NCBI RefSeq assembly: GCF_015529805.1
Contig: NZ_CP064654.1
Span: 930,001 to 994,000 of the forward strand
Reading direction: 5' to 3'
DNA: 64,000 nt
DNA from: Qipengyuania soli
GTDB taxonomy: Bacteria; Pseudomonadota; Alphaproteobacteria; Sphingomonadales; Sphingomonadaceae
Under the pieces are notes generated by a model. The model was not told the DNA's origin, did no database searches, and was given only the letters and a program-made list of their open reading frames with translations. Shown here piece after piece: positions 17,754-27,434 of this stretch. Each line of letters starts with the position of its first letter. Positions within the stretch are counted from its first letter, which is position 1. The translations under genes were made by a program, and so were the position numbers.

Positions 17754-17788
17754 TTGCCTATCACATCGACATGGAACATAATAGGAAC
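17754..17788 (+). promoter_or_regulatory. SOS promoter of imuAB with LexA box
   Basis: Perfect alphaproteobacterial LexA box GAAC-N7-GAAC at 17774-17788, overlapping a plausible -10 (CATAAT, 17777-17782) spaced 17 bp from a -35 (TTGCCT, 17754-17759). The box ends 17 bases before the imuA ATG. LexA binding here would block RNA polymerase until DNA damage. Confidence 0.85.
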
Positions 17789-17805: not shown

Positions 17806-18594
17806 ATGATCCATACTGATCCTGCTCCACTGCCTTTCACGGCCTTTGAGGATGTCGCCGCGATTTCCACGCGGCGCAGTGCCCGGTGGCGTCCGGGGCT
17901 GGCTGCGCAATCCGGGCCAGCATTGCACAGCGAAATCTTCGCCTCATCGCGCGAAGGGGCGGGCGCGGCGGTGGCTCTGGCGCTGGCCCTAGACGACTGG
18001 CGCAGCATTCCCCGTGGGGAAGGGCGTGAGGAAGAGGACCGCCGTGAGGTGCTATGGGTCCAGACGCGCGAGGCAGCACGACTGAGTGGGCGCCCCTATC
18101 GTGCCGGCCTGCCGCTGGAACTGGCGACAAGGCTAATCCACGTCCTTGCCGATAAGCCGGAGGATGCGCTCTTTGCCCTGGAAGAGGGTTTGCGCTGCCG
18201 CGACCTCGCCTTCGTGATCGGGGAAGTGTCCGGCAATCCGCGGGCGCTCGATTTTACCGCCTCGCGGCGGCTGACGCTGGCGGCGCAGAAACACGGTGTG
18301 CCGCTGTTTCTCGTCCGTCTCGATGCTCAGCGCGACCTGTCTTCGGCGCGGATGCGCTGGGAGGTGACCTCGGTGCCTTCCGCACCGCTCCGCTGGAACG
18401 CGCAGGCGCCCGGCGTACCGGCATGGCGGGCCGAACTGTTCCGCGCCCGTACCCATGCGCCGGGCGAATGGCTGCTGCACCAGGACGGTGTTCGACTGAA
18501 GGCAATGCGCGAGCGGGCCGCGGACAACGACACCGGAGGCGCGATGGACTGGACTGCGGGGCTGCAGCGCAGGCGGCTTCCGCAAGGAGCGTGA
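17806..18594 (+). CDS. imuA: ImuA, SOS mutagenesis cassette protein
   Basis: 262 residues. It is a RecA-like fold protein lacking a clear Walker A motif, as in the ImuA family: LHSEIFASSREGAGAAVALALALDDW opens the core (quoted in part: LHSEIFASSREGAG), followed by VLWVQTREAARLSGRPY, LAFVIGEVSGNP and RRLTLAAQKHGVPLFLVR. The C-terminus ends in a basic QRRR stretch. ImuA acts with ImuB and DnaE2 in damage-induced mutagenesis. It is preceded by a LexA box and directly followed by imuB (2-base gap). Confidence 0.9.
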   Translation: MIHTDPAPLPFTAFEDVAAISTRRSARWRPGLAAQSGPALHSEIFASSREGAGAAVALALALDDWRSIPRGEGREEEDRREVLWVQTREAARLSGRPYRAGLPLELATRLIHVLADKPEDALFALEEGLRCRDLAFVIGEVSGNPRALDFTASRRLTLAAQKHGVPLFLVRLDAQRDLSSARMRWEVTSVPSAPLRWNAQAPGVPAWRAELFRARTHAPGEWLLHQDGVRLKAMRERAADNDTGGAMDWTAGLQRRRLPQGA

Positions 18595-18596
18595 AC

Positions 18597-20180
18597 ATGA
18601 TCGGGCACGGCAACGACCGCCCGCGCAGGATACTCTCGATCTGGCTTCCTGCACTGGCGATGGATCGCTGGCGGCAGGGCGGTGGGAAAGAGCGTCGCGA
18701 GTTCGACAGGCAGCCGCTCGTCCTGATCGCCGACACTGCGCACGGACCTCGCATCGAAGCTGCCAACCGTCCCGGGTCGGAAGCGGGAGCACGACCCGGA
18801 ATGATGCTGGCAGACGCACGTACGCTGTGCCCGCAGCTCATTACCGCGCCTTCCGATCCAGCGGGTGATCTTGCCTTTCTCGAGAGCCTTGCCGTCTGGG
18901 CGCAGCGATGGGGGCCGTGGTCGGCGCTCGATGCGCCCGACGGGCTGCTGGTCGATGTAACCTCGGTCCCGCACCTCTTCGGCGGCGAGACGAGATTGGT
19001 CGAGGATGTCCATAATGCCTTCGCCCGCCGCGAACTGGCAGTGCGCACCGCCATCGCGCCCACTGCAGGCGCGGCTTGGGCACTGGCGCACTACGGGCCG
19101 CCGGGCACGATCGTGGAGGGACGTGAAGGTATCGCGCGTGCCCTGTCCGACCTGCCCGTCGCGGCACTGAGGCTCGACAAGGATGTCGTCACCGTGCTGC
19201 GCCGTCTCGGCCTCAAGCGACTGGGAGAGGTTTCGACCATCGGCCGCGATGCGATCCAGCGGCGCTTCCGCAACCGCAAGTCGCCTGCGGCCAATCCGCT
19301 GATCCGGCTCGACCAGCTGCTTGGCCTTGTGCCCGAGCCGCTGTTGCCCGTGGTGCCGGTGCAGATGCCGCTGGTTCAGCGCCGGCTGATGGAGCCGATC
19401 CGCCACCGGCAATTGCTCGACACGGTGGTGTCAGATCTTGCCGCCGACATGGCACGCGAGCTGGAGGGCAGGGGGTTGGGCGCGCGTCGCCTCGAACTCG
19501 GCCTGTGGCGTGTCGATGGCGAGGTGGTCGTACGCCGCCTCGAAATGGCCGCAGCGACACGCGATCCGGCGCATATCGTGCGACTGTTCGCGGCCAGGCT
19601 CGACGATGTCGACGCTGGCTTCGGGATCGAGATGCTGCGCCTGCGTGCCAGCTGGGCCGAACCGCTCGCGCTGGAGCAGGGCGATATCGAGGCTGCGGCG
19701 GAAAGCCACGGGACTTCGCTTTCCGCGTGCATCGACCGGCTGACTGTCCGCCTCGGCCCGCGCGCGGTCAGCCGGCCGGTGCCCTTTGCCAGCCACTTGC
19801 CCGAACGGGCGCAGCGCTGGCAGCCGCCGCTCGACCCGGAACCGGCTTCGCAAGGCTTACTCGCTTTTCACGAGAGGCCACTGAAAATGCTTGAGAAACC
19901 GGAAATGATCGCGGTGCTCTATGCTACCCCGGACGGCTACCCCCAACGCTTTCGCTGGCGCGGCTCCGTGCACGAGGTGGTGCGGGTGGAGGGACCGGAA
20001 CGGATTGCCCCCGAATGGTGGCGCGAGCGTGGCAGCGCGCGCCTGCGCGATTACTACCGGATCGAGGATGACCATGGGCGCCGTTACTGGATCTACCGCC
20101 AAGGGATCATCGGTGACGGGAGGGGTAGCGACCGCAACGGCGGGCTGCCCGACTGGTATCTGCAGGGACTCTGCGCCTAA
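18597..20180 (+). CDS. imuB: ImuB, Y-family polymerase-like mutagenesis protein (catalytically dead)
   Basis: 527 residues from ATG at 18597 (AAGGAG eight bases before). Y-family palm and finger regions are recognisable: RILSIWLPALAMDRW at the N-terminus, RPGSEAGARPGMMLADARTLCP, LLVDVTSVPHLFGGE and LGLKRLGEVSTI. The position that is D-x-D in active Y polymerases reads IWLPAL, so the catalytic acids are missing, as is normal for ImuB, which serves as an adaptor to the sliding clamp. A QMPLV peptide (about 256) resembles a clamp-binding motif. The C-terminal part carries the ImuB-specific domain. It depends on DnaE2 for synthesis. Confidence 0.9.
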   Translation: MIGHGNDRPRRILSIWLPALAMDRWRQGGGKERREFDRQPLVLIADTAHGPRIEAANRPGSEAGARPGMMLADARTLCPQLITAPSDPAGDLAFLESLAVWAQRWGPWSALDAPDGLLVDVTSVPHLFGGETRLVEDVHNAFARRELAVRTAIAPTAGAAWALAHYGPPGTIVEGREGIARALSDLPVAALRLDKDVVTVLRRLGLKRLGEVSTIGRDAIQRRFRNRKSPAANPLIRLDQLLGLVPEPLLPVVPVQMPLVQRRLMEPIRHRQLLDTVVSDLAADMARELEGRGLGARRLELGLWRVDGEVVVRRLEMAAATRDPAHIVRLFAARLDDVDAGFGIEMLRLRASWAEPLALEQGDIEAAAESHGTSLSACIDRLTVRLGPRAVSRPVPFASHLPERAQRWQPPLDPEPASQGLLAFHERPLKMLEKPEMIAVLYATPDGYPQRFRWRGSVHEVVRVEGPERIAPEWWRERGSARLRDYYRIEDDHGRRYWIYRQGIIGDGRGSDRNGGLPDWYLQGLCA

Positions 20181-20577: not shown

Positions 20578-20976
20578 CTATTCCGAGCGGAGGAACTCGC
20601 TTCGGCGCGACCGTTTCTGGCCGAGCGGGATATTCCCGAAATTGGCCACCGGCCCGCTGGGCGCCTCGACCGTCTGGCTGGCATGTTCCACTACCGCCAT
20701 CGGGATCGGGCGTTCGAAGATCAGGCCGCAGCTGTTGTCGTTGACCCAGACGACCTTGCAGAAATGCTCCTGGTCCGCCCACTCGAGCAGGCCGGAAACG
20801 CCTTCCACCGGTGGGTTGGGCGTGTCGAGGCGGGCACCTGCCTCGGAAAGGTCACTGAGGCGGCCGATGCGGTCGCCACCGAGCATCTTGAGCCGGGCAG
20901 GGCAATCGACAGCATATCTTCGGCTCGCGCGGCGTTCCGGCTGCGCGACAGCCGCATTCCTCCGAAATAGCGCCAC
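20578..20976 (-). CDS. PilZ domain protein
   Basis: 132 residues, almost entirely one PilZ domain. The c-di-GMP binding signature RRASRRY (about residues 15-21; RxxxR) and LSDLSEAGARL (D/NxSxxG, about 41-51) are both present, so nucleotide binding is likely. A short basic C-terminus follows. No output domain is attached, so it probably acts through a protein partner. It is transcribed divergently from the SOS operon at 21114, and its 54-base gap to the secreted protein gene suggests co-transcription. Confidence 0.85.
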   Translation of the reverse strand: MALFRRNAAVAQPERRASRRYAVDCPARLKMLGGDRIGRLSDLSEAGARLDTPNPPVEGVSGLLEWADQEHFCKVVWVNDNSCGLIFERPIPMAVVEHASQTVEAPSGPVANFGNIPLGQKRSRRSEFLRSE

Positions 20977-21078: not shown

Positions 21079-21111
21079 TTGGCGAAGGATTGTTGGGAAC
21101 ATATATAGAAC
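21079..21111 (+). promoter_or_regulatory. SOS promoter of the rSAM-udgX-dnaE2 operon with LexA box
   Basis: Perfect LexA box GAAC-ATATATA-GAAC at 21097-21111, only two bases before the ATG at 21114. A -10 TATATA (21102-21107) inside the box is 17 bp from a -35 TTGGCG (21079-21084). With normal spacing transcription would begin at or next to the ATG, so the mRNA should be leaderless; no ribosome-binding sequence is seen. Confidence 0.8.
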
Positions 21112-21113
21112 AT

Positions 21114-22358
21114 ATGTCCTCGCAATCGGTCCTCCAGAAGCTCGAAATCCTTGCGGATGCGGCGAAATACGATGCCTCCTGCGCCTCGTCCGGCACGGCC
21201 AAGCGCAACTCAATGGGCGGCAAGGGCATCGGCTCGACCGAGGGGATGGGCATCTGCCACGCCTATGCGCCCGACGGCCGTTGCATCAGCCTGCTCAAGA
21301 TACTGCTGACCAACCACTGCGTGTTCGACTGCCACTACTGCGTCAATCGCAAGAGCTCGAACGTGGCCCGCGCGCGGTTCACGCCGCAGGAGGTGGTCGA
21401 CCTCACGCTCGCGTTCTACCGGCGCAACTACATCGAGGGGCTGTTCCTGTCGTCGGGCATCGTGAAAAGCTCGAACCACACGATGGAGCAGCTGGTAGAA
21501 GTCGCACGCATCCTGCGGGAAGAACACGATTTTCGCGGCTACATTCACCTCAAGACCATTCCCGAGGCGGATCCGGAGATCGTCCACCAGGCGGGGCTCT
21601 ACGCCGACCGTATCTCGATCAATGTCGAACTGCCGACCGACAGCGGCCTGACCCGCCTCGCGCCCGACAAGAGCGCAGCGCAGATCGAAGGCGCGATGGG
21701 CAAGGTGAAGGCCGATCTCGTCGAGGCGAAGGATGCGAGGAAGCGCTTCAAGCACGCCCCGCGCTTTGCGCCTGCGGGCCAGTCGACGCAGATGATCGTC
21801 GGCGCCGATGCCGCGACCGACAGCGACATCGTGGGCAAGGCGAGCCGGCTCTACGACAGCTTCAAGCTGCGCCGCGTGTACTACAGCGCCCTCTCGCCGA
21901 TCCCCGATGCGAGCGCGGTGCTGCCGCTGAAGCGCCCGCCGCTGATCCGTGAACACCGGCTCTACCAGTCGGATTGGCTGATGCGCTTCTACGGCTACAA
22001 GCCGGCCGAGGTGATGCAGGCGACCGAGGCGGACGGGAACCTGCCGCTCGACATCGACCCCAAGCTCGCGTGGGCGCTCAAGTTCCGCGAGCAGTTTCCG
22101 GTCGACGTGAACTGCGCGAGCAAGGAGCAGCTACTGCGCGTGCCGGGCCTCGGCGTGAAGGCGGTGGGCAAGATCCTCGCCAGTCGCCGCCACCGCACCC
22201 TGCGCTTGGACGATGTGGCGCGACTGACGCTGTCGATCACCAAGGTGCGGCCGTTCATCTGCACCGTCGACTGGCGGCCCGTGTTGCTGACCGACCGCGC
22301 CGATCTGCGCAGCCTGCTCGCGCCGAAGACCGAGCAGTTGGAGCTGTTTGTCGCATGA
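21114..22358 (+). CDS. Putative DNA modification/repair radical SAM protein
   Basis: 414 residues. Radical SAM cluster motif CX3CX2C at C69, C73 and C76 (NHCVFDCHYC) binds the 4Fe-4S cluster. The barrel follows with LFLSSGIVKSSNHTMEQ and FRGYIHLKTIPEADPE. The C-terminal 90 residues carry a helix-hairpin-helix DNA-binding motif (VPGLGVKAVGKIL, about 343-355). This architecture is the 'SAM-link-HhH' protein usually encoded with UdgX; its reaction is not known. The start is ATG at 21114, supported by MSSQSVLQKLEIL; a TTG at 21066 is a poor alternative. The last codon overlaps the udgX ATG (ATGA). Confidence 0.88.
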   Translation: MSSQSVLQKLEILADAAKYDASCASSGTAKRNSMGGKGIGSTEGMGICHAYAPDGRCISLLKILLTNHCVFDCHYCVNRKSSNVARARFTPQEVVDLTLAFYRRNYIEGLFLSSGIVKSSNHTMEQLVEVARILREEHDFRGYIHLKTIPEADPEIVHQAGLYADRISINVELPTDSGLTRLAPDKSAAQIEGAMGKVKADLVEAKDARKRFKHAPRFAPAGQSTQMIVGADAATDSDIVGKASRLYDSFKLRRVYYSALSPIPDASAVLPLKRPPLIREHRLYQSDWLMRFYGYKPAEVMQATEADGNLPLDIDPKLAWALKFREQFPVDVNCASKEQLLRVPGLGVKAVGKILASRRHRTLRLDDVARLTLSITKVRPFICTVDWRPVLLTDRADLRSLLAPKTEQLELFVA

Positions 22359-23821
22359 CTGTTAAACAGGCTCTTGGCCTCCAGCACGTCCGGCTCGGCA
22401 CCTATTACGTCGTCAACCTGCCCGATGCCGACGATTTCGACTTCTGGCGCGAGCGCGCCCGTGCGCTTGTCCAGTGCGAGGTGCCGCCCGACCGTATTGC
22501 CTGGGTCGAACCGGGCGGCAGCGGCGACCTCTTCTCGCATGGCGAGCGCCGCATGCCGGTCCCACCCGCTGATGCGCGTCCCGTCCGCGCCAATCGCCGC
22601 TTCGTGCAACTGGCGCGCAATGCAGCGCTTCATTCGGACACCGAACGCTTTGCGCTGCTCTACCGCTTGTTGTGGCGGCTGCAGGCCAATCCCCGGATCA
22701 TGGAGGACAAGGCCGATCTCGATGTCCGGCGGATCGAGGAACTCGACAAGAACGTCCGCCGCGACAGTCACAAGATGCACGCCTTCGTCCGCTTCCGGCT
22801 TGTGGAGAGCGACCCTGATGCGCTCGGGGAGGAAGCGGGCGAGCACTACGTCGCCTGGTTCGAGCCCGAGCACCACATCCTGCGCGCCAATGCAGGCTTC
22901 TTCATGCGGCGCTTTTCGAACATGCGCTGGTCGATCCTGACCCCGCGCGGCAGCTTGCACTGGGATGGGAGCATCATGTCCGAAGGGCCGCCCGCACAGC
23001 GCAGCGATGCGCCTGGCGGCGATCCGATGGAGGACCTCTGGCGCAAGTACTATGCGTCGATCTTCAACCCCGCGCGACTGAAAGTCGGCGCGATGCTGAA
23101 GGAGATGCCGAAGAAATACTGGAAGAACATGCCCGAGGCTTCGCTCATCCCGGACCTCATCGCGGGCGCGCAGAACCGCGAGGCGGCGATGGTCGAGAAG
23201 GGCGCGCTTGAATTCGAGGAACGGCCCGACACGCTGGAGGGGATCGACCGCGCCATCCACGCCTGCCGCAAGTGCCCCATCGGCGCGCTCGACAACAATG
23301 CGGTGATGGGCGAGGGGCCGCGCGATGCGGCGCTCATGATCGTTGGCGAGCAGCCGGGCGACAACGAGGATTTGCAGGGTCGCCCCTTTGTGGGGCCGGC
23401 AGGGCAATTGCTCGACGTTCACCTCGAAAAGGCAGGGATCGACCGGCGCACGGCCTACCTCACCAATGCGGTGAAGCATTTCAAATACGTCCAGCGCGGC
23501 AAGCGGCGCCTGCACCAGAACCCGGGCGCGAAGGAAATCGACACCTGCCGCTGGTGGATCGAGGGCGAGCGCGCGATCGTGCAGCCGAAACTGGTGCTCG
23601 CCATGGGTGCCAGCGCGGCGCGCAGCGTGCTGGGCAGGACGGTGAGTATCTCGAAAGTGCGCGGCAAGCCGATCCCGCTGGAGGACGGCAGCGAGCTGTG
23701 GGTCACTGTGCACCCGTCCTACCTCCTGCGCCTCGAAGGCCCCGCGCGCGAGGAACAGGCGCGGCTGTTCGATGCCGACCTTGCGGCGGTCAAGGTGCGG
23801 CTCGGGGAAGTGAGGGGGTGA
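22355..23821 (+). CDS. udgX: UdgX-family uracil-DNA binding glycosylase fused to a DUF4130 domain
   Basis: 488 residues. The first about 240 residues are a DUF4130 domain. The last about 210 are a UDG-fold: motif A GEQPGDNED (from about 331), RPFVGPAGQLLD, the UdgX-specific R-loop KRRLHQ (383-388) and motif HPSYLL (near 452). CRKCP and other cysteines suit the 4Fe-4S cluster of family 4-like enzymes. In the mycobacterial enzyme the R-loop histidine (here H387) attacks the sugar and leaves UdgX covalently bound to uracil-containing DNA. Translation is coupled to the rSAM gene. Being co-transcribed with dnaE2 under LexA points to a damage-tolerance role. Confidence 0.9.
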   Translation: MTVKQALGLQHVRLGTYYVVNLPDADDFDFWRERARALVQCEVPPDRIAWVEPGGSGDLFSHGERRMPVPPADARPVRANRRFVQLARNAALHSDTERFALLYRLLWRLQANPRIMEDKADLDVRRIEELDKNVRRDSHKMHAFVRFRLVESDPDALGEEAGEHYVAWFEPEHHILRANAGFFMRRFSNMRWSILTPRGSLHWDGSIMSEGPPAQRSDAPGGDPMEDLWRKYYASIFNPARLKVGAMLKEMPKKYWKNMPEASLIPDLIAGAQNREAAMVEKGALEFEERPDTLEGIDRAIHACRKCPIGALDNNAVMGEGPRDAALMIVGEQPGDNEDLQGRPFVGPAGQLLDVHLEKAGIDRRTAYLTNAVKHFKYVQRGKRRLHQNPGAKEIDTCRWWIEGERAIVQPKLVLAMGASAARSVLGRTVSISKVRGKPIPLEDGSELWVTVHPSYLLRLEGPAREEQARLFDADLAAVKVRLGEVRG

Positions 23822-23822
23822 G

Positions 23823-26800
23823 ATGCCCGAGAACGACCTCCAGATCCCCAAGCGGACGATCGAACTCGACCCCGAGCTGATCGACGCACCGCCGCGCGCA
23901 CCCTTCGTCGAACTCGGTATCGCCTCCTGCTTCAGCTTCCTGCGCGGGGCGAGCGATGCGGTCGACCTGGTGCTGCAGGCCCGCGCGTTGGGGTACGATG
24001 CCATCGGGATTGCCGATGCCAATACCATGGCCGGTATCGTGCGTGTGCATACTGAAGCAAAAACGCTGAAATTGAAGCCGCTTATCGGCTGCAGGATAGA
24101 AACCGTCGAAGGTCTGGCCTTCCTCGCCTATCCAATCGACCGTGAAGCCTATGGACGGTTGTGCCGGCTCATCAGTGCAGGACGGATGCAGACGCTTGAC
24201 GGCGAATGGCAGGAGAAGGGCGCCTGCGACATCTCGCTCACCATGCTGGCCGGCCATGCCGAGGGGGTGCAACTGGTCCTGCTCCCGCCACGTGACCTAG
24301 CCCGCGAGTTCACGATTTCGGTCGAAAGCAATGTGGTGCCGTTTCCGGAAGGTCCGTCATTCCCGCGCAGGCGGGAATCCAGCGAAGCACAACGCAAGCC
24401 CACCCTGGATCCCCGCCTGCGCGGGGATGACAAGGTAAGGAAGTCATTTCCCGATCTTCTTCCCCACCTCGTCGACCAGCTACCAACTCTACGCCATATT
24501 GCCGCCAGCTATCTCCATACCGGCGATGATGTCGCGCGGATCGAGCAGCTCGACGCGCTGGCAAGGGCGAATGGTCTCGCCATCCTTGCGACCAACGACG
24601 TGCATTACGCGACACCCGACCGGCGGCCGTTGCAGGACGTGATGACGGCGATCCGGCACAAGACCACCGTCGCTGCCGCCGGGCACCTGCTCCATGGCAA
24701 TGCCGAGCGTTACCTGAAGCCGCCCGAGACGATGGTGCGCCTGTTCGAGCGCTGGCCCCACGCCATTGCCGCCGCACGCCAAGTGGCCGATGCCTGCAAC
24801 TTCAGCCTCGACGAACTGCGCTACGAGTATCCGGAAGAGATCTACCCCGACGGCCAGTCACCGCAGCAATTCCTCGAGAGCGAGACGTGGAAGGGCGCGC
24901 AATGGCGCTATCCCAGCGGTGTGCCCGACACGGTGCGCGCCACGCTGGAGCGCGAACTGGCGCTGATCGGCAAGCTGGAGCTGGCGCGCTATTTCCTCAC
25001 CATCAAGGACATCGTCGACTACGCGCGCGGGGTCGATCCGCCGATCCTTTGCCAGGGGCGCGGCAGTGCGGCGAACTCGGCGGTGTGCTATTGCCTCGGC
25101 ATCACATCAGTCGACCCGGCCAAGCACGCGCTGCTGTTCGACCGTTTCATCTCGGAGGAACGCAAGGAGCCGCCCGACATCGACGTCGATTTCGAGCACG
25201 AGCGGCGCGAGGAGGTGATCCAGTACATCTACGGCAAGTATGGCCGCCATCGCGCCGGTCTGTGCGCCACGGTGATCCATTACCGCCCGCGCATGGCCAT
25301 CCGCGAGGTCGGCAAGGCGATGGGCCTGACCGAGGATGTCACCGCTGCCCTGTCCAGGACCGTCTGGGGCGGATGGGGCCGCGAGATCAGCGAGCGGCAC
25401 GCTGCCGAAACAGGGATGGACGTCACCGACCCGCACTTGCGGCGTGTTCTCAAGCTGACCGAGCAAATGATTGGCATGCCGCGTCATTTGTCGCAGCATG
25501 TCGGTGGTTTCATCCTCACCGAAGGTGCGCTGACCGAGACCGTGCCGATCGGCAACGGCGCCATGCCCGAGCGTAGTTTCATCGAGTGGGACAAGGACGA
25601 TATCGAGGCGCTGGGCATCCTCAAGGTCGATGTGCTGGCACTGGGCATGCTGACCTGCATCCGCAAGTGCCTCGACCTGCTCGACGATCATCACAACCGC
25701 CCCCTGAGCCTTGCAACCGTCCCGCGCGAGGACCCCGAGACCTATGCCATGCTGCGCAAGGGGGACTCGCTCGGCGTGTTCCAGGTCGAGAGCCGGGCGC
25801 AGATGAACATGCTGCCACGGCTGCGCCCGCGCGAATTCTACGATCTCGTCATCCAGGTTGCCATCGTCCGTCCCGGCCCGATCCAGGGCGACATGGTCCA
25901 CCCATATCTCAAGCGTCGCCGCGGGGCGGAACAGGTCGTCATTCCCGCACCATCTCCCGAACACGGTCCGCCCGACGAGCTTTCCAGCATCCTCGAGCGC
26001 ACGCTTGGCGTCCCGATCTTCCAGGAGCAGGCGATGAAGATCGCGCTCGACGCGGCCAAGTTCTCATCGCTCGAGGCGAACCGGTTGCGCAAGGCGATGG
26101 CCACCTTCCGCAGCCGCGGCATGGTCGACGAATTGCAGGACATGATGGTAGAGCGCATGGTCCACCGCGGTTACGACCGCGAGTTCGCGCAGCGCTGCTT
26201 CAACCAGATCCGCGGTTTCGGCGAATACGGTTTTCCCGAGAGCCATGCGGCGAGCTTCGCGCACCTCGTCTACGTGTCGAGCTGGCTCAAGTGCCATTTC
26301 CCCGCAGCCTTCGGTTGCGCGCTGCTCAATTCGCAGCCGATGGGCTTTTACGCCCCGGCGCAGATCGTGCGTGACGTCGTCGAACATGGCGTCAAAGTGC
26401 TGCCTGCCGACGTCAATTTGTCGCAGTGGGACTGCACGCTGGAGCAGGTGAGTGAAGCCACACATCGGCGTGACGGCAGTGGTGGCGACAGCGGCCGTCT
26501 CGACAGGCATATCGCGTTGCGGCTTGGCCTGAGGCAGGTGGACGGCTTGCCGGAAGCCGTGGCGGCACGGCTGATTGCCGAGCGCGAGGAGCGGGGTGCT
26601 TACGCTGACGTCACGGCGCTGAGGGACCGTGCGCGCATAGGGCCGGCGCATGTCGAGCGGCTTGCGAGCGCCGACTGCTTCGGTTCGATGAACCTGACGC
26701 GGCGACAGGCCCTCTGGGATGCGCGCAGCCTGATCGGCGGGCCGGACCTGCCGCTGTTCGCTGCGGCGGCGGCGCGGGACGAGGGGGCGGAGACCTCGCG

Positions 26801-27434
26801 CACCCGGCTCCCCGTAATGCCGCTGTCAGAGGAGGTGGTGGCCGATTACCAGACCACGCGCCTGAGCCTGAAGGCCCACCCGATGGCCTTCCTACGTGCG
26901 AGCCTCGCCGAACGCGGTTTCGTGCGCGCCTGCGACCTGCGCGAGCGCAAGTTTCGCTCCATGGTCCATGTCGCCGGGGTGGTGCTGATCCGCCAGCGAC
27001 CGGGTTCGGCGAAGGGTGTTTGCTTCATCACGCTGGAGGACGAGACGGGTGTCATCAACCTCGTTGTGTGGCCCGATCTCAAGGAAAAACAACGCCGTGT
27101 GGTGATGGGTTCACGCCTTATGGAGGTGCGTGGCCGTGTAGAATACGACGATGAAGTTATACACGTTATAGCGCATCACATGGAGGATGCGACGCATCAG
27201 CTGTACCATCTGTCCGATGACATGCTGAATGCACCCGTCGCCCGTGCCGATCATGTCAATTCGCCGCTGCCCGACAAGTTCAACCCGCGCGACAACCTGC
27301 GCGAGGGCAAGGACGATCCCTACCAGCCGGTCGAGCCCTGGCAGGAGCCGCCGCCGGGCAATCGCGAATGTGGATGGCAGGGCAGGCACCCGCGTGACGT
27401 GCGAATCATTCCACCCAGCCGCGACTTCCACTAG
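23823..27434 (+). CDS. dnaE2: Error-prone DNA polymerase III alpha subunit DnaE2
   Basis: 1203 residues. Order: PHP domain (first about 300), polymerase palm with PPDIDVDFEHERREE (catalytic aspartates, about 450), fingers, HhH region and a C-terminal OB fold (VHVAGVVLIRQRPG, GVCFITLEDETGVINLVVWP). The PHP domain starts ELGIASCFSFLRGAS, without the first-motif histidine common in other DnaE proteins. It performs translesion synthesis with ImuA/ImuB. An in-frame 26-residue segment (about 178-203; SFPRRRESS...LDPRLRGDDK) is encoded by a palindromic repeat insertion. Starts one base after the udgX stop; third gene of the LexA-controlled operon. Confidence 0.93.
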   Translation: MPENDLQIPKRTIELDPELIDAPPRAPFVELGIASCFSFLRGASDAVDLVLQARALGYDAIGIADANTMAGIVRVHTEAKTLKLKPLIGCRIETVEGLAFLAYPIDREAYGRLCRLISAGRMQTLDGEWQEKGACDISLTMLAGHAEGVQLVLLPPRDLAREFTISVESNVVPFPEGPSFPRRRESSEAQRKPTLDPRLRGDDKVRKSFPDLLPHLVDQLPTLRHIAASYLHTGDDVARIEQLDALARANGLAILATNDVHYATPDRRPLQDVMTAIRHKTTVAAAGHLLHGNAERYLKPPETMVRLFERWPHAIAAARQVADACNFSLDELRYEYPEEIYPDGQSPQQFLESETWKGAQWRYPSGVPDTVRATLERELALIGKLELARYFLTIKDIVDYARGVDPPILCQGRGSAANSAVCYCLGITSVDPAKHALLFDRFISEERKEPPDIDVDFEHERREEVIQYIYGKYGRHRAGLCATVIHYRPRMAIREVGKAMGLTEDVTAALSRTVWGGWGREISERHAAETGMDVTDPHLRRVLKLTEQMIGMPRHLSQHVGGFILTEGALTETVPIGNGAMPERSFIEWDKDDIEALGILKVDVLALGMLTCIRKCLDLLDDHHNRPLSLATVPREDPETYAMLRKGDSLGVFQVESRAQMNMLPRLRPREFYDLVIQVAIVRPGPIQGDMVHPYLKRRRGAEQVVIPAPSPEHGPPDELSSILERTLGVPIFQEQAMKIALDAAKFSSLEANRLRKAMATFRSRGMVDELQDMMVERMVHRGYDREFAQRCFNQIRGFGEYGFPESHAASFAHLVYVSSWLKCHFPAAFGCALLNSQPMGFYAPAQIVRDVVEHGVKVLPADVNLSQWDCTLEQVSEATHRRDGSGGDSGRLDRHIALRLGLRQVDGLPEAVAARLIAEREERGAYADVTALRDRARIGPAHVERLASADCFGSMNLTRRQALWDARSLIGGPDLPLFAAAAARDEGAETSRTRLPVMPLSEEVVADYQTTRLSLKAHPMAFLRASLAERGFVRACDLRERKFRSMVHVAGVVLIRQRPGSAKGVCFITLEDETGVINLVVWPDLKEKQRRVVMGSRLMEVRGRVEYDDEVIHVIAHHMEDATHQLYHLSDDMLNAPVARADHVNSPLPDKFNPRDNLREGKDDPYQPVEPWQEPPPGNRECGWQGRHPRDVRIIPPSRDFH
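24356..24431. repeat. 76-bp palindromic repeat inserted in frame in dnaE2
   Basis: Left arm 24356-24382 (begins GTCATTCCCGCGCAGGCGGG) and right arm 24405-24431 (ends CGCCTGCGCGGGGATGAC) are 27-nt inverted copies with two differences, both compatible with G-U pairing. Loop 22 nt. Its translation, SFPRRRESS...LDPRLRGDDK, is the familiar product of an abundant family of intergenic repeats in Proteobacteria. Here it keeps the reading frame open. Confidence 0.9.

Follow-up and report, generated by a model that had tools for sequence, protein, structure and literature searches.

The pairing of a radical S-adenosylmethionine (rSAM) protein with a uracil-DNA glycosylase (UDG), together with its control by LexA, is already known, having been reported or inferred for several phyla. 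The NCBIfam name of TIGR03916, rSAM_link_UDG, ties the rSAM protein to UDG. A passage of PMC3765255 links DUF4130, an rSAM protein and UDG, with an SplB-like reading; for Bacteroidetes, the pertinent section of PMC8565304 infers that LexA controls a COG1573-COG4277 pair, and it cites such control of the UDG system in Verrucomicrobia and Alphaproteobacteria (Erill 2016; da Rocha 2008). In the corresponding part of PMC3828012, LexA control is inferred for CAC3343-CAC3344 of Clostridium acetobutylicum, which include an rSAM protein of this name, and an excerpt of PMC13130816 reports that a protein so named is up-regulated on desiccation in Acinetobacter. The precise role of UdgX is described as largely unknown in a passage of PMC10359453. 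Here we describe a locus at positions 21079-27434 of a 64,000-nt stretch of Qipengyuania soli DNA (NZ_CP064654.1, 930,001-994,000; the whole stretch is called the window below), in which an rSAM gene, a gene for a DUF4130-UdgX fusion and the polymerase gene dnaE2 lie in this order behind a perfect LexA box (Table 1). We take COG4277 to be the same family as TIGR03916, and we know of no reaction for the rSAM/DUF4130 pair.

A first-pass annotation, made from the letters of the window, had presented this locus as the best candidate in the window for an undescribed system, a description overtaken by the NCBIfam name and by the passages of PMC3765255, PMC8565304 and PMC3828012 that already describe or infer the pair or its LexA control. 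The perfect LexA box ahead of three genes joined by an ATGA overlap and a one-base gap was borne out by the sequence and by family scans, and H387 is indeed the R-loop histidine of UdgX. The three genes had been listed correctly, while the DUF4130 domain and the upstream imuA'-imuB genes, with a LexA box of their own, had been overlooked. Our literature search did not find the pair described inside or beside an ImuA-ImuB-DnaE2 cassette, most subscription papers and supplementary files lying outside its reach; the placement of the pair inside a mutasome operon, and its origin, seem not to have been described yet. What we add is the conservation and spacing of the rSAM box, a clade with dnaE2 behind the pair, divergent arrangements of pair and cassette, the joint distribution of rSAM and DUF4130, and three extra cysteines in rSAM.

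The explanation that we favor is as follows. LexA would cover the -10 element of the rSAM promoter and, upon LexA cleavage, a leaderless mRNA would run from the rSAM ATG through udgX into dnaE2; in the clade where these genes are linked, the polymerase DnaE2 would be induced from the rSAM promoter. The rSAM protein and the DUF4130 domain would form a joint radical-chemistry enzyme acting on damaged or uracil-derived pyrimidines in DNA, and the fused UdgX domain would find uracil or abasic sites, cap them covalently via His387 and anchor its partners there. DnaE2, with ImuA and ImuB, would copy what remains. The module would be an accessory of the mutasome that works without the mutasome elsewhere. 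To this explanation as a whole, a blend of regulation and module structure with a chemical role, we assign a probability of roughly 0.55. Judged from genome comparison, its regulatory and structural part is highly probable, and the chemical role given to rSAM and DUF4130-UdgX is tentative.

The regulatory part is carried by conservation of the LexA box. Of 132 loci (the window and 131 fetched ones), 130 have a perfect GTTCN7GTTC in the 250 nt before rSAM, sought on either strand, compared with 77 of 2640 random 280-bp windows from the same loci. This difference rules out the box as a chance match; only L105 and L127 showed no perfect box upstream of rSAM. In the 2.9-Mb genome of Q. soli itself, 89 perfect sites (56 forward and 33 reverse) stand against 33 forward and 33 reverse sites for a reversed-pattern control; hence, single boxes are mostly chance matches, and the case rests on conservation. 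A perfect box also precedes rSAM in 78 of 80 named loci, which span Sphingomonadales, Caulobacterales, Rhodobacterales, Hyphomicrobiales, Rhodospirillales, Acetobacterales and others; these are the best 80 among 594 or more peptide matches (the peptides being conserved ones), and are biased to close relatives. Among loci drawn over the phylum (28, from 53 genomes over the cut-off, plus four fetched later, some of them also among the 132), the box was present in all 28 loci of the window's class or family, with three genomes represented twice, and the alpha-type box in none of the four loci outside the class. In two of those four (L313 and L316) a CTGTN8ACAG box precedes the rSAM start by about 20 to 60 nt, as calculated from locus coordinates; outside the class, control of rSAM seems to be kept while the operator differs. 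The rSAM promoter carries GTTCN7GTTC, the operator of the alphaproteobacterial LexA regulon, and SOS control of the rSAM unit is strongly supported by these comparisons. LexA itself is over the cut-off as one copy in the Q. soli genome. A weak second LexA-family match (27.6 bits, below the cut-off) was seen on the minus strand at G000:C1:1682998-1683243 (L288), and a perfect GTTCN7GTTC lies about 480 bases upstream of it, at 1683726-1683740.

The upstream profile of the 132 regions shows -35-like T (83%), G (77%) and C (62%) at positions -35, -33 and -31, and an AT-rich -10 inside the LexA box, with the spacing of the window dominating. The distance between box and ATG is fixed in about 85% of the regions. 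In this profile the expected transcription start coincides with the rSAM ATG, and we infer that the rSAM mRNA would be leaderless. Position 21079, where the first-pass annotation began the locus, is the first base of the -35-like element.

The partners that travel together were identified in a family survey of 199 genomes, in which profile matches over cut-off were listed and the lists were compared by eye. TIGR03916 (rSAM) was over the cut-off in 127 genomes, TIGR03915 (DUF4130) in 129, TIGR03914 (UdgX) in 140 and DnaE2 in 172. All 127 rSAM genomes also had TIGR03915, and DUF4130 occurred without rSAM in G187 and G296 only; in G146, G168, G225 and G311 both genes are present, but apart. Matches to DUF4130 and UdgX fell in one open reading frame (ORF) in all 125 loci holding both, and in six named loci (L213, L223, L225, L228, L242 and L255) no UdgX domain follows DUF4130 in its ORF. 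Five of these six have the box (at -104 in L255), L228 being the one without it. Seven of the 27 genomes without DnaE2 have rSAM (G153, G173, G248, G264, G309, G316 and G330); of these, only G173, G248 and G309 combine a completeness of 99% or more with just one match as strong as expected of the replicative DnaE. By these matches, the core of the module is rSAM plus DUF4130, and UdgX and DnaE2 are optional.

Gene order in the 132 loci was read by tblastn with the proteins of the window, a few stretches being cut by contig ends. The dnaE2 gene comes after udgX in 41 loci, the window included, and in 38 of these imuA and imuB precede rSAM, with PilZ between imuB and rSAM in six (the window among them). 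In 84 loci, one with PilZ, rSAM-DUF4130-UdgX has no cassette gene match in the stretch; four others have rSAM alone, two lack a UdgX match, and one ends at a contig edge after imuA, imuB and part of rSAM. The same junction is seen in 12 of the 80 named loci, and is absent from a Qipengyuania vulgaris locus (L177). Gaps between udgX and dnaE2 across loci are rough, as they use the first in-frame start, and only the one-base gap of the window is relied upon. No LexA box was found within 300 nt of dnaE2 in any of the 41 linked loci, and 35 of the 38 imuA matches in them have a box within 150 nt. With no box of their own, the dnaE2 genes of these loci are expected to be placed under SOS control by the rSAM promoter.

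For comparison, 40 cassettes of the window's family were picked by hand, 20 from genomes with unlinked rSAM and 20 from genomes without rSAM over the cut-off. In 38 of them dnaE2 follows imuB with nothing recognised between; the remaining two (G276 and G331) have UdgX alone between imuB and dnaE2, without rSAM. A box lies near the first recognised gene in 25 of the 40, counted by eye. In the window, dnaE2 does not directly follow imuB. A DnaE2 tree of 79 rows, built without L079 (short) and L135 (one in-frame stop), groups the 39 linked rows with six that lack rSAM, in a single 45-row clade (support of 100 in the Shimodaira-Hasegawa-like approximate likelihood ratio test, SH-aLRT), and the linkage label changes 7 times, against 26.7 for shuffled labels. 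In the rSAM tree, from which L154, L171 and L172 were omitted because rSAM is short or broken, the smallest strongly supported group around the window comprises 40 linked and 24 unlinked rows (64 in all), in agreement with the DnaE2 tree. The simplest reading of the trees is that a single insertion gave rise to the linked clade, with several losses. In L346, L347 and L351 of that clade, imuB and dnaE2 matches adjoin. A separate observation concerns L356, also in the linked clade: its dnaE2 has neither rSAM nor UdgX beside it and retains a LexA box a short way upstream, a picture that would fit deletion of the module with its promoter now serving the polymerase.

Other arrangements exist. In Henriciella (L219), imuA-imuB-dnaE2 stands divergent beside rSAM-DUF4130-UdgX. 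In another family, three of four fetched genomes (L357-L359, where the fetched stretch cuts dnaE2) have the cassette divergent from the pair with one LexA box between, and the short loci L302, L303, L305 and L306, from these genomes and a fourth, repeat this order of imuA and imuB. Adjacency of rSAM, udgX and dnaE2 is not limited to this genome, a limit that would have counted against the first-pass annotation. Its idea of one pathway with DnaE2 fared less evenly: SOS control and a DNA-repair role of the rSAM unit are supported by comparison, while an obligate rSAM-UdgX-DnaE2 pathway was rejected because the three near-complete genomes have no DnaE2 over the cut-off. In addition, 91 of the 132 loci have no dnaE2 match beside the pair (a few are cut by contig ends), and six linked-clade cassettes lack rSAM.

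Several observations weigh against the explanation that we favor. The rSAM gene is sparse, passing the cut-off in 7 of 142 genomes from an even draw across the class and in 53 of 299 across the phylum. Within the family, 52 of the 172 genomes with DnaE2 have no rSAM over the cut-off (120 have it), and the six cassettes without rSAM lie inside the linked dnaE2 clade itself. Genomes G173, G248 and G309 carry rSAM, DUF4130 and a LexA box with no DnaE2 over the cut-off; moreover, the DUF4130 ORF of G248 is 315 amino acids long and no UdgX is over the cut-off, and this locus (L166) has a LexA box. Among the 50 listed fold matches of the fusion model, which belong mainly to the UDG superfamily, none is clearly DUF4130's own. 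The leaderless start is deduced from spacing and nothing else. Lastly, shared SOS control need not imply a shared pathway.

The rival that survives best is regulatory hitch-hiking: rSAM-DUF4130-UdgX and DnaE2 would have no chemistry in common. A shared need for a LexA promoter would have brought the former genes into the cassette, and dependence of dnaE2 on the rSAM promoter would then preserve the junction. This rival accounts for an in-line junction found in one clade of the family only (the 41 linked loci), for a pair that elsewhere mostly lacks the cassette, for the three near-complete genomes with the pair and no DnaE2 over the cut-off, and for the imuB and dnaE2 matches that adjoin again in three loci of the linked clade. 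It is less at ease with the divergent cassettes beside the pair in Henriciella and in the other family, the latter sharing a LexA box: adjacency would be unlikely to recur by chance, although regulation alone may cause SOS genes to cluster. On balance, we consider this rival possible, if somewhat doubtful.

The chemical part of the mutasome-accessory explanation starts from the cysteines of rSAM. Every one of 209 aligned proteins has the CX3CX2C motif (C69, C73 and C76) and three further cysteines (C23, C48 and C57). All six are equally invariant in a partly overlapping set of 33 rows, made up of the window and the loci of the phylum draw and of the last fetch. An AlphaFold2 model of rSAM has a mean predicted local distance difference test score (pLDDT) of 85.6, falling to about 53-59 for residues 21-60, which hold C23, C48 and C57. 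The model matches HydE, biotin synthase, HydG, lipoyl synthase, ThiH and MiaB with template modeling (TM) scores of about 0.4 of the query, which as a model-based comparison is a generic radical-SAM match. Searching PDB sequences with the rSAM profile yielded nothing beyond helix-hairpin-helix (HhH), radical-SAM and unrelated matches, with E-values of 0.018 or worse. Because the extra cysteines are invariant and the fold match is of the radical-SAM type, a second iron-sulfur cluster beyond that of CX3CX2C is suggested; the model shows none. The position of C23, C48 and C57 on the N-terminal side is presumably as in lipoyl synthase and MiaB. The invariant cysteines yield a concrete biochemical prediction, namely two clusters. 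That a two-cluster rSAM, with DUF4130, uses radical chemistry for an insertion or excision on damaged pyrimidines within gaps of single-stranded DNA is a further step that we regard as unlikely.

The same cysteines bear on direct reversal of damage, in which rSAM would split a pyrimidine photoproduct by the mechanism of spore photoproduct lyase (SPL), in line with the SplB-like reading in a passage of PMC3765255. A radical SAM enzyme with an SOS-type promoter and DNA-repair neighbours would suit such a function. Against it, the 209 aligned rSAM proteins have no invariant cysteine after C76, and none of the 50 listed of 69 PDB fold matches (E ≤0.001) is named SPL, the listed ones being HydE, BioB, HydG, LIAS, MiaB, PylB, viperin and other classes. 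In SPL, the hydrogen-donor cysteine lies after the CX3CX2C motif. The photolyase reading is weakened by both the fold matches and the cysteine pattern, and appears improbable.

In the proposed accessory, capping would be the task of the UdgX domain. The fusion alignment (A2) holds 50 of the 51 fusions for the same row choice as the rSAM alignment A1 (72 rows chosen from the rSAM tree), L130 being left out; Q333 of motif A is present in all 50 rows and H387 in at least 90% of them. Among 97 fusions (those of the 125 with a start found near the rSAM stop), the first motif-A-like match found by script is GEQPG in 91, and the R-loop histidine is present in 95 (87 by script and 8 by reading), L130 being left undecided. 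Motif B of the window reads HPSYLLR, with Y at the S/A position also in the consensus of the 50 rows, and does not agree with the form HPS(S/A)(L/V)(L/V)R given in a passage of PMC10359453. The model of the fusion (pLDDT 88.7, predicted TM score 0.56) matches the UdgX structures of Mycobacterium smegmatis with TM scores of 0.84-0.91 of the target (0.86 for 6ajp). A peculiar case is L100, whose R-loop reads GKRRLN, with asparagine in place of the cross-linking histidine; this UdgX may excise without capping. The weakest rival, in which rSAM/DUF4130 would resolve the covalent UdgX-DNA adduct and clear UdgX, draws on the single ORF for DUF4130 and UdgX in every locus with both, and is very unlikely given rSAM with UdgX-less DUF4130 ORFs and a LexA box in five loci (a sixth, L228, being alike without the box), UdgX in more family genomes than rSAM (140 vs 127), and UdgX before dnaE2 without rSAM in G276 and G331.

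A LexA promoter kept across classes with different operators, together with links to a mutagenic polymerase in more than one lineage, would place rSAM/DUF4130 and UdgX in the response to DNA damage. The role of the pair can be tested by simple deletions in culturable Erythrobacteraceae.

Gene identities (Table 1) were assigned from ORFs and NCBIfam and Pfam profile scans against curated cut-offs. Among named genomes, the rSAM protein of the window is closest to that of Qipengyuania polymorpha (93% identity), and its C-terminal stretch is HhH-like by a Pfam match below cut-off. The imuB-like ORF had no NCBIfam match in the family scan. The palindromic element in dnaE2 has 27-nt arms, 93% complementary, and no second exact copy of its 20-base motif occurs in the genome. 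Other insert-like stretches occupy the same DnaE2 loop in L108, L092 and L124, and the loop after the PHP match may be an insertion hot spot.

Table 1. Features of the locus and its upstream neighbours, in positions of the window
Feature	Position	Strand	Remarks
LexA box of imuA'	17774..17788	-	Perfect; GTTCCTATTATGTTC
imuA'-like gene	17806..18594	+	NF033429 28.5 bits (cut-off 150); named by its place before imuB
imuB-like gene, Y-family polymerase paralogue	18423..20180	+	Start uncertain; PF00817, PF11799 and PF20114 above Pfam cut-offs
PilZ-domain gene	20578..20976	-	PF07238; separates imuB from the rSAM unit
Promoter-like -35 and -10 of rSAM	21079-21084, 21102-21107	+	TTGGCG and TATATA; spacing 17 bp
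LexA box of rSAM	21097..21111	-	Perfect (GTTCN7GTTC); GAACATATATAGAAC; covers the -10; two bases before the rSAM ATG
rSAM	21114..22358	+	TIGR03916 (rSAM_link_UDG) 570.3 bits (cut-off 343.5); ATG at 21114
DUF4130-UdgX fusion	22355..23821	+	ATGA overlap with rSAM
DUF4130 domain of fusion	22643..23137	+	PF13566, residues ~97-261; TIGR03915 220.5 bits (cut-off 112.25)
UdgX domain of fusion	23144..23791	+	TIGR03914 317.1 bits (cut-off 189.95)
R-loop His387 codon of UdgX	23513-23515	+	KRRLH
dnaE2, error-prone DNA polymerase	23823..27434	+	NF004225 1366.5 bits (cut-off 939); starts one base after the DUF4130-udgX stop
Palindromic element in dnaE2	24356..24431	.	In frame, after the PHP match

Four known systems come closest to the locus. 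CAC3343-CAC3344 resembles it in having an rSAM protein of this name and a neighbour of unknown function under putative LexA control, and differs in that the relevant part of PMC3828012 does not mention UdgX or a polymerase. With UdgX of M. smegmatis (6ajp, 6ail) it shares motif A (GEQPG), the R-loop histidine and the fold; here, however, UdgX is part of a DUF4130 fusion whose gene adjoins rSAM, motif B has Y, and the cross-link is only predicted. The three genes of the ImuA-ImuB-DnaE2 cassette are present in order, imuA' being named by position, with a LexA box before imuA', whereas here the cassette is split by pilZ, rSAM and udgX, and dnaE2 has no box of its own. Finally, as in the two-gene COG1573-COG4277 SOS operon, a uracil-DNA glycosylase gene and a COG4277 gene are under predicted LexA control, but the present unit has DUF4130 fused in front of UdgX and includes dnaE2 as its third gene.

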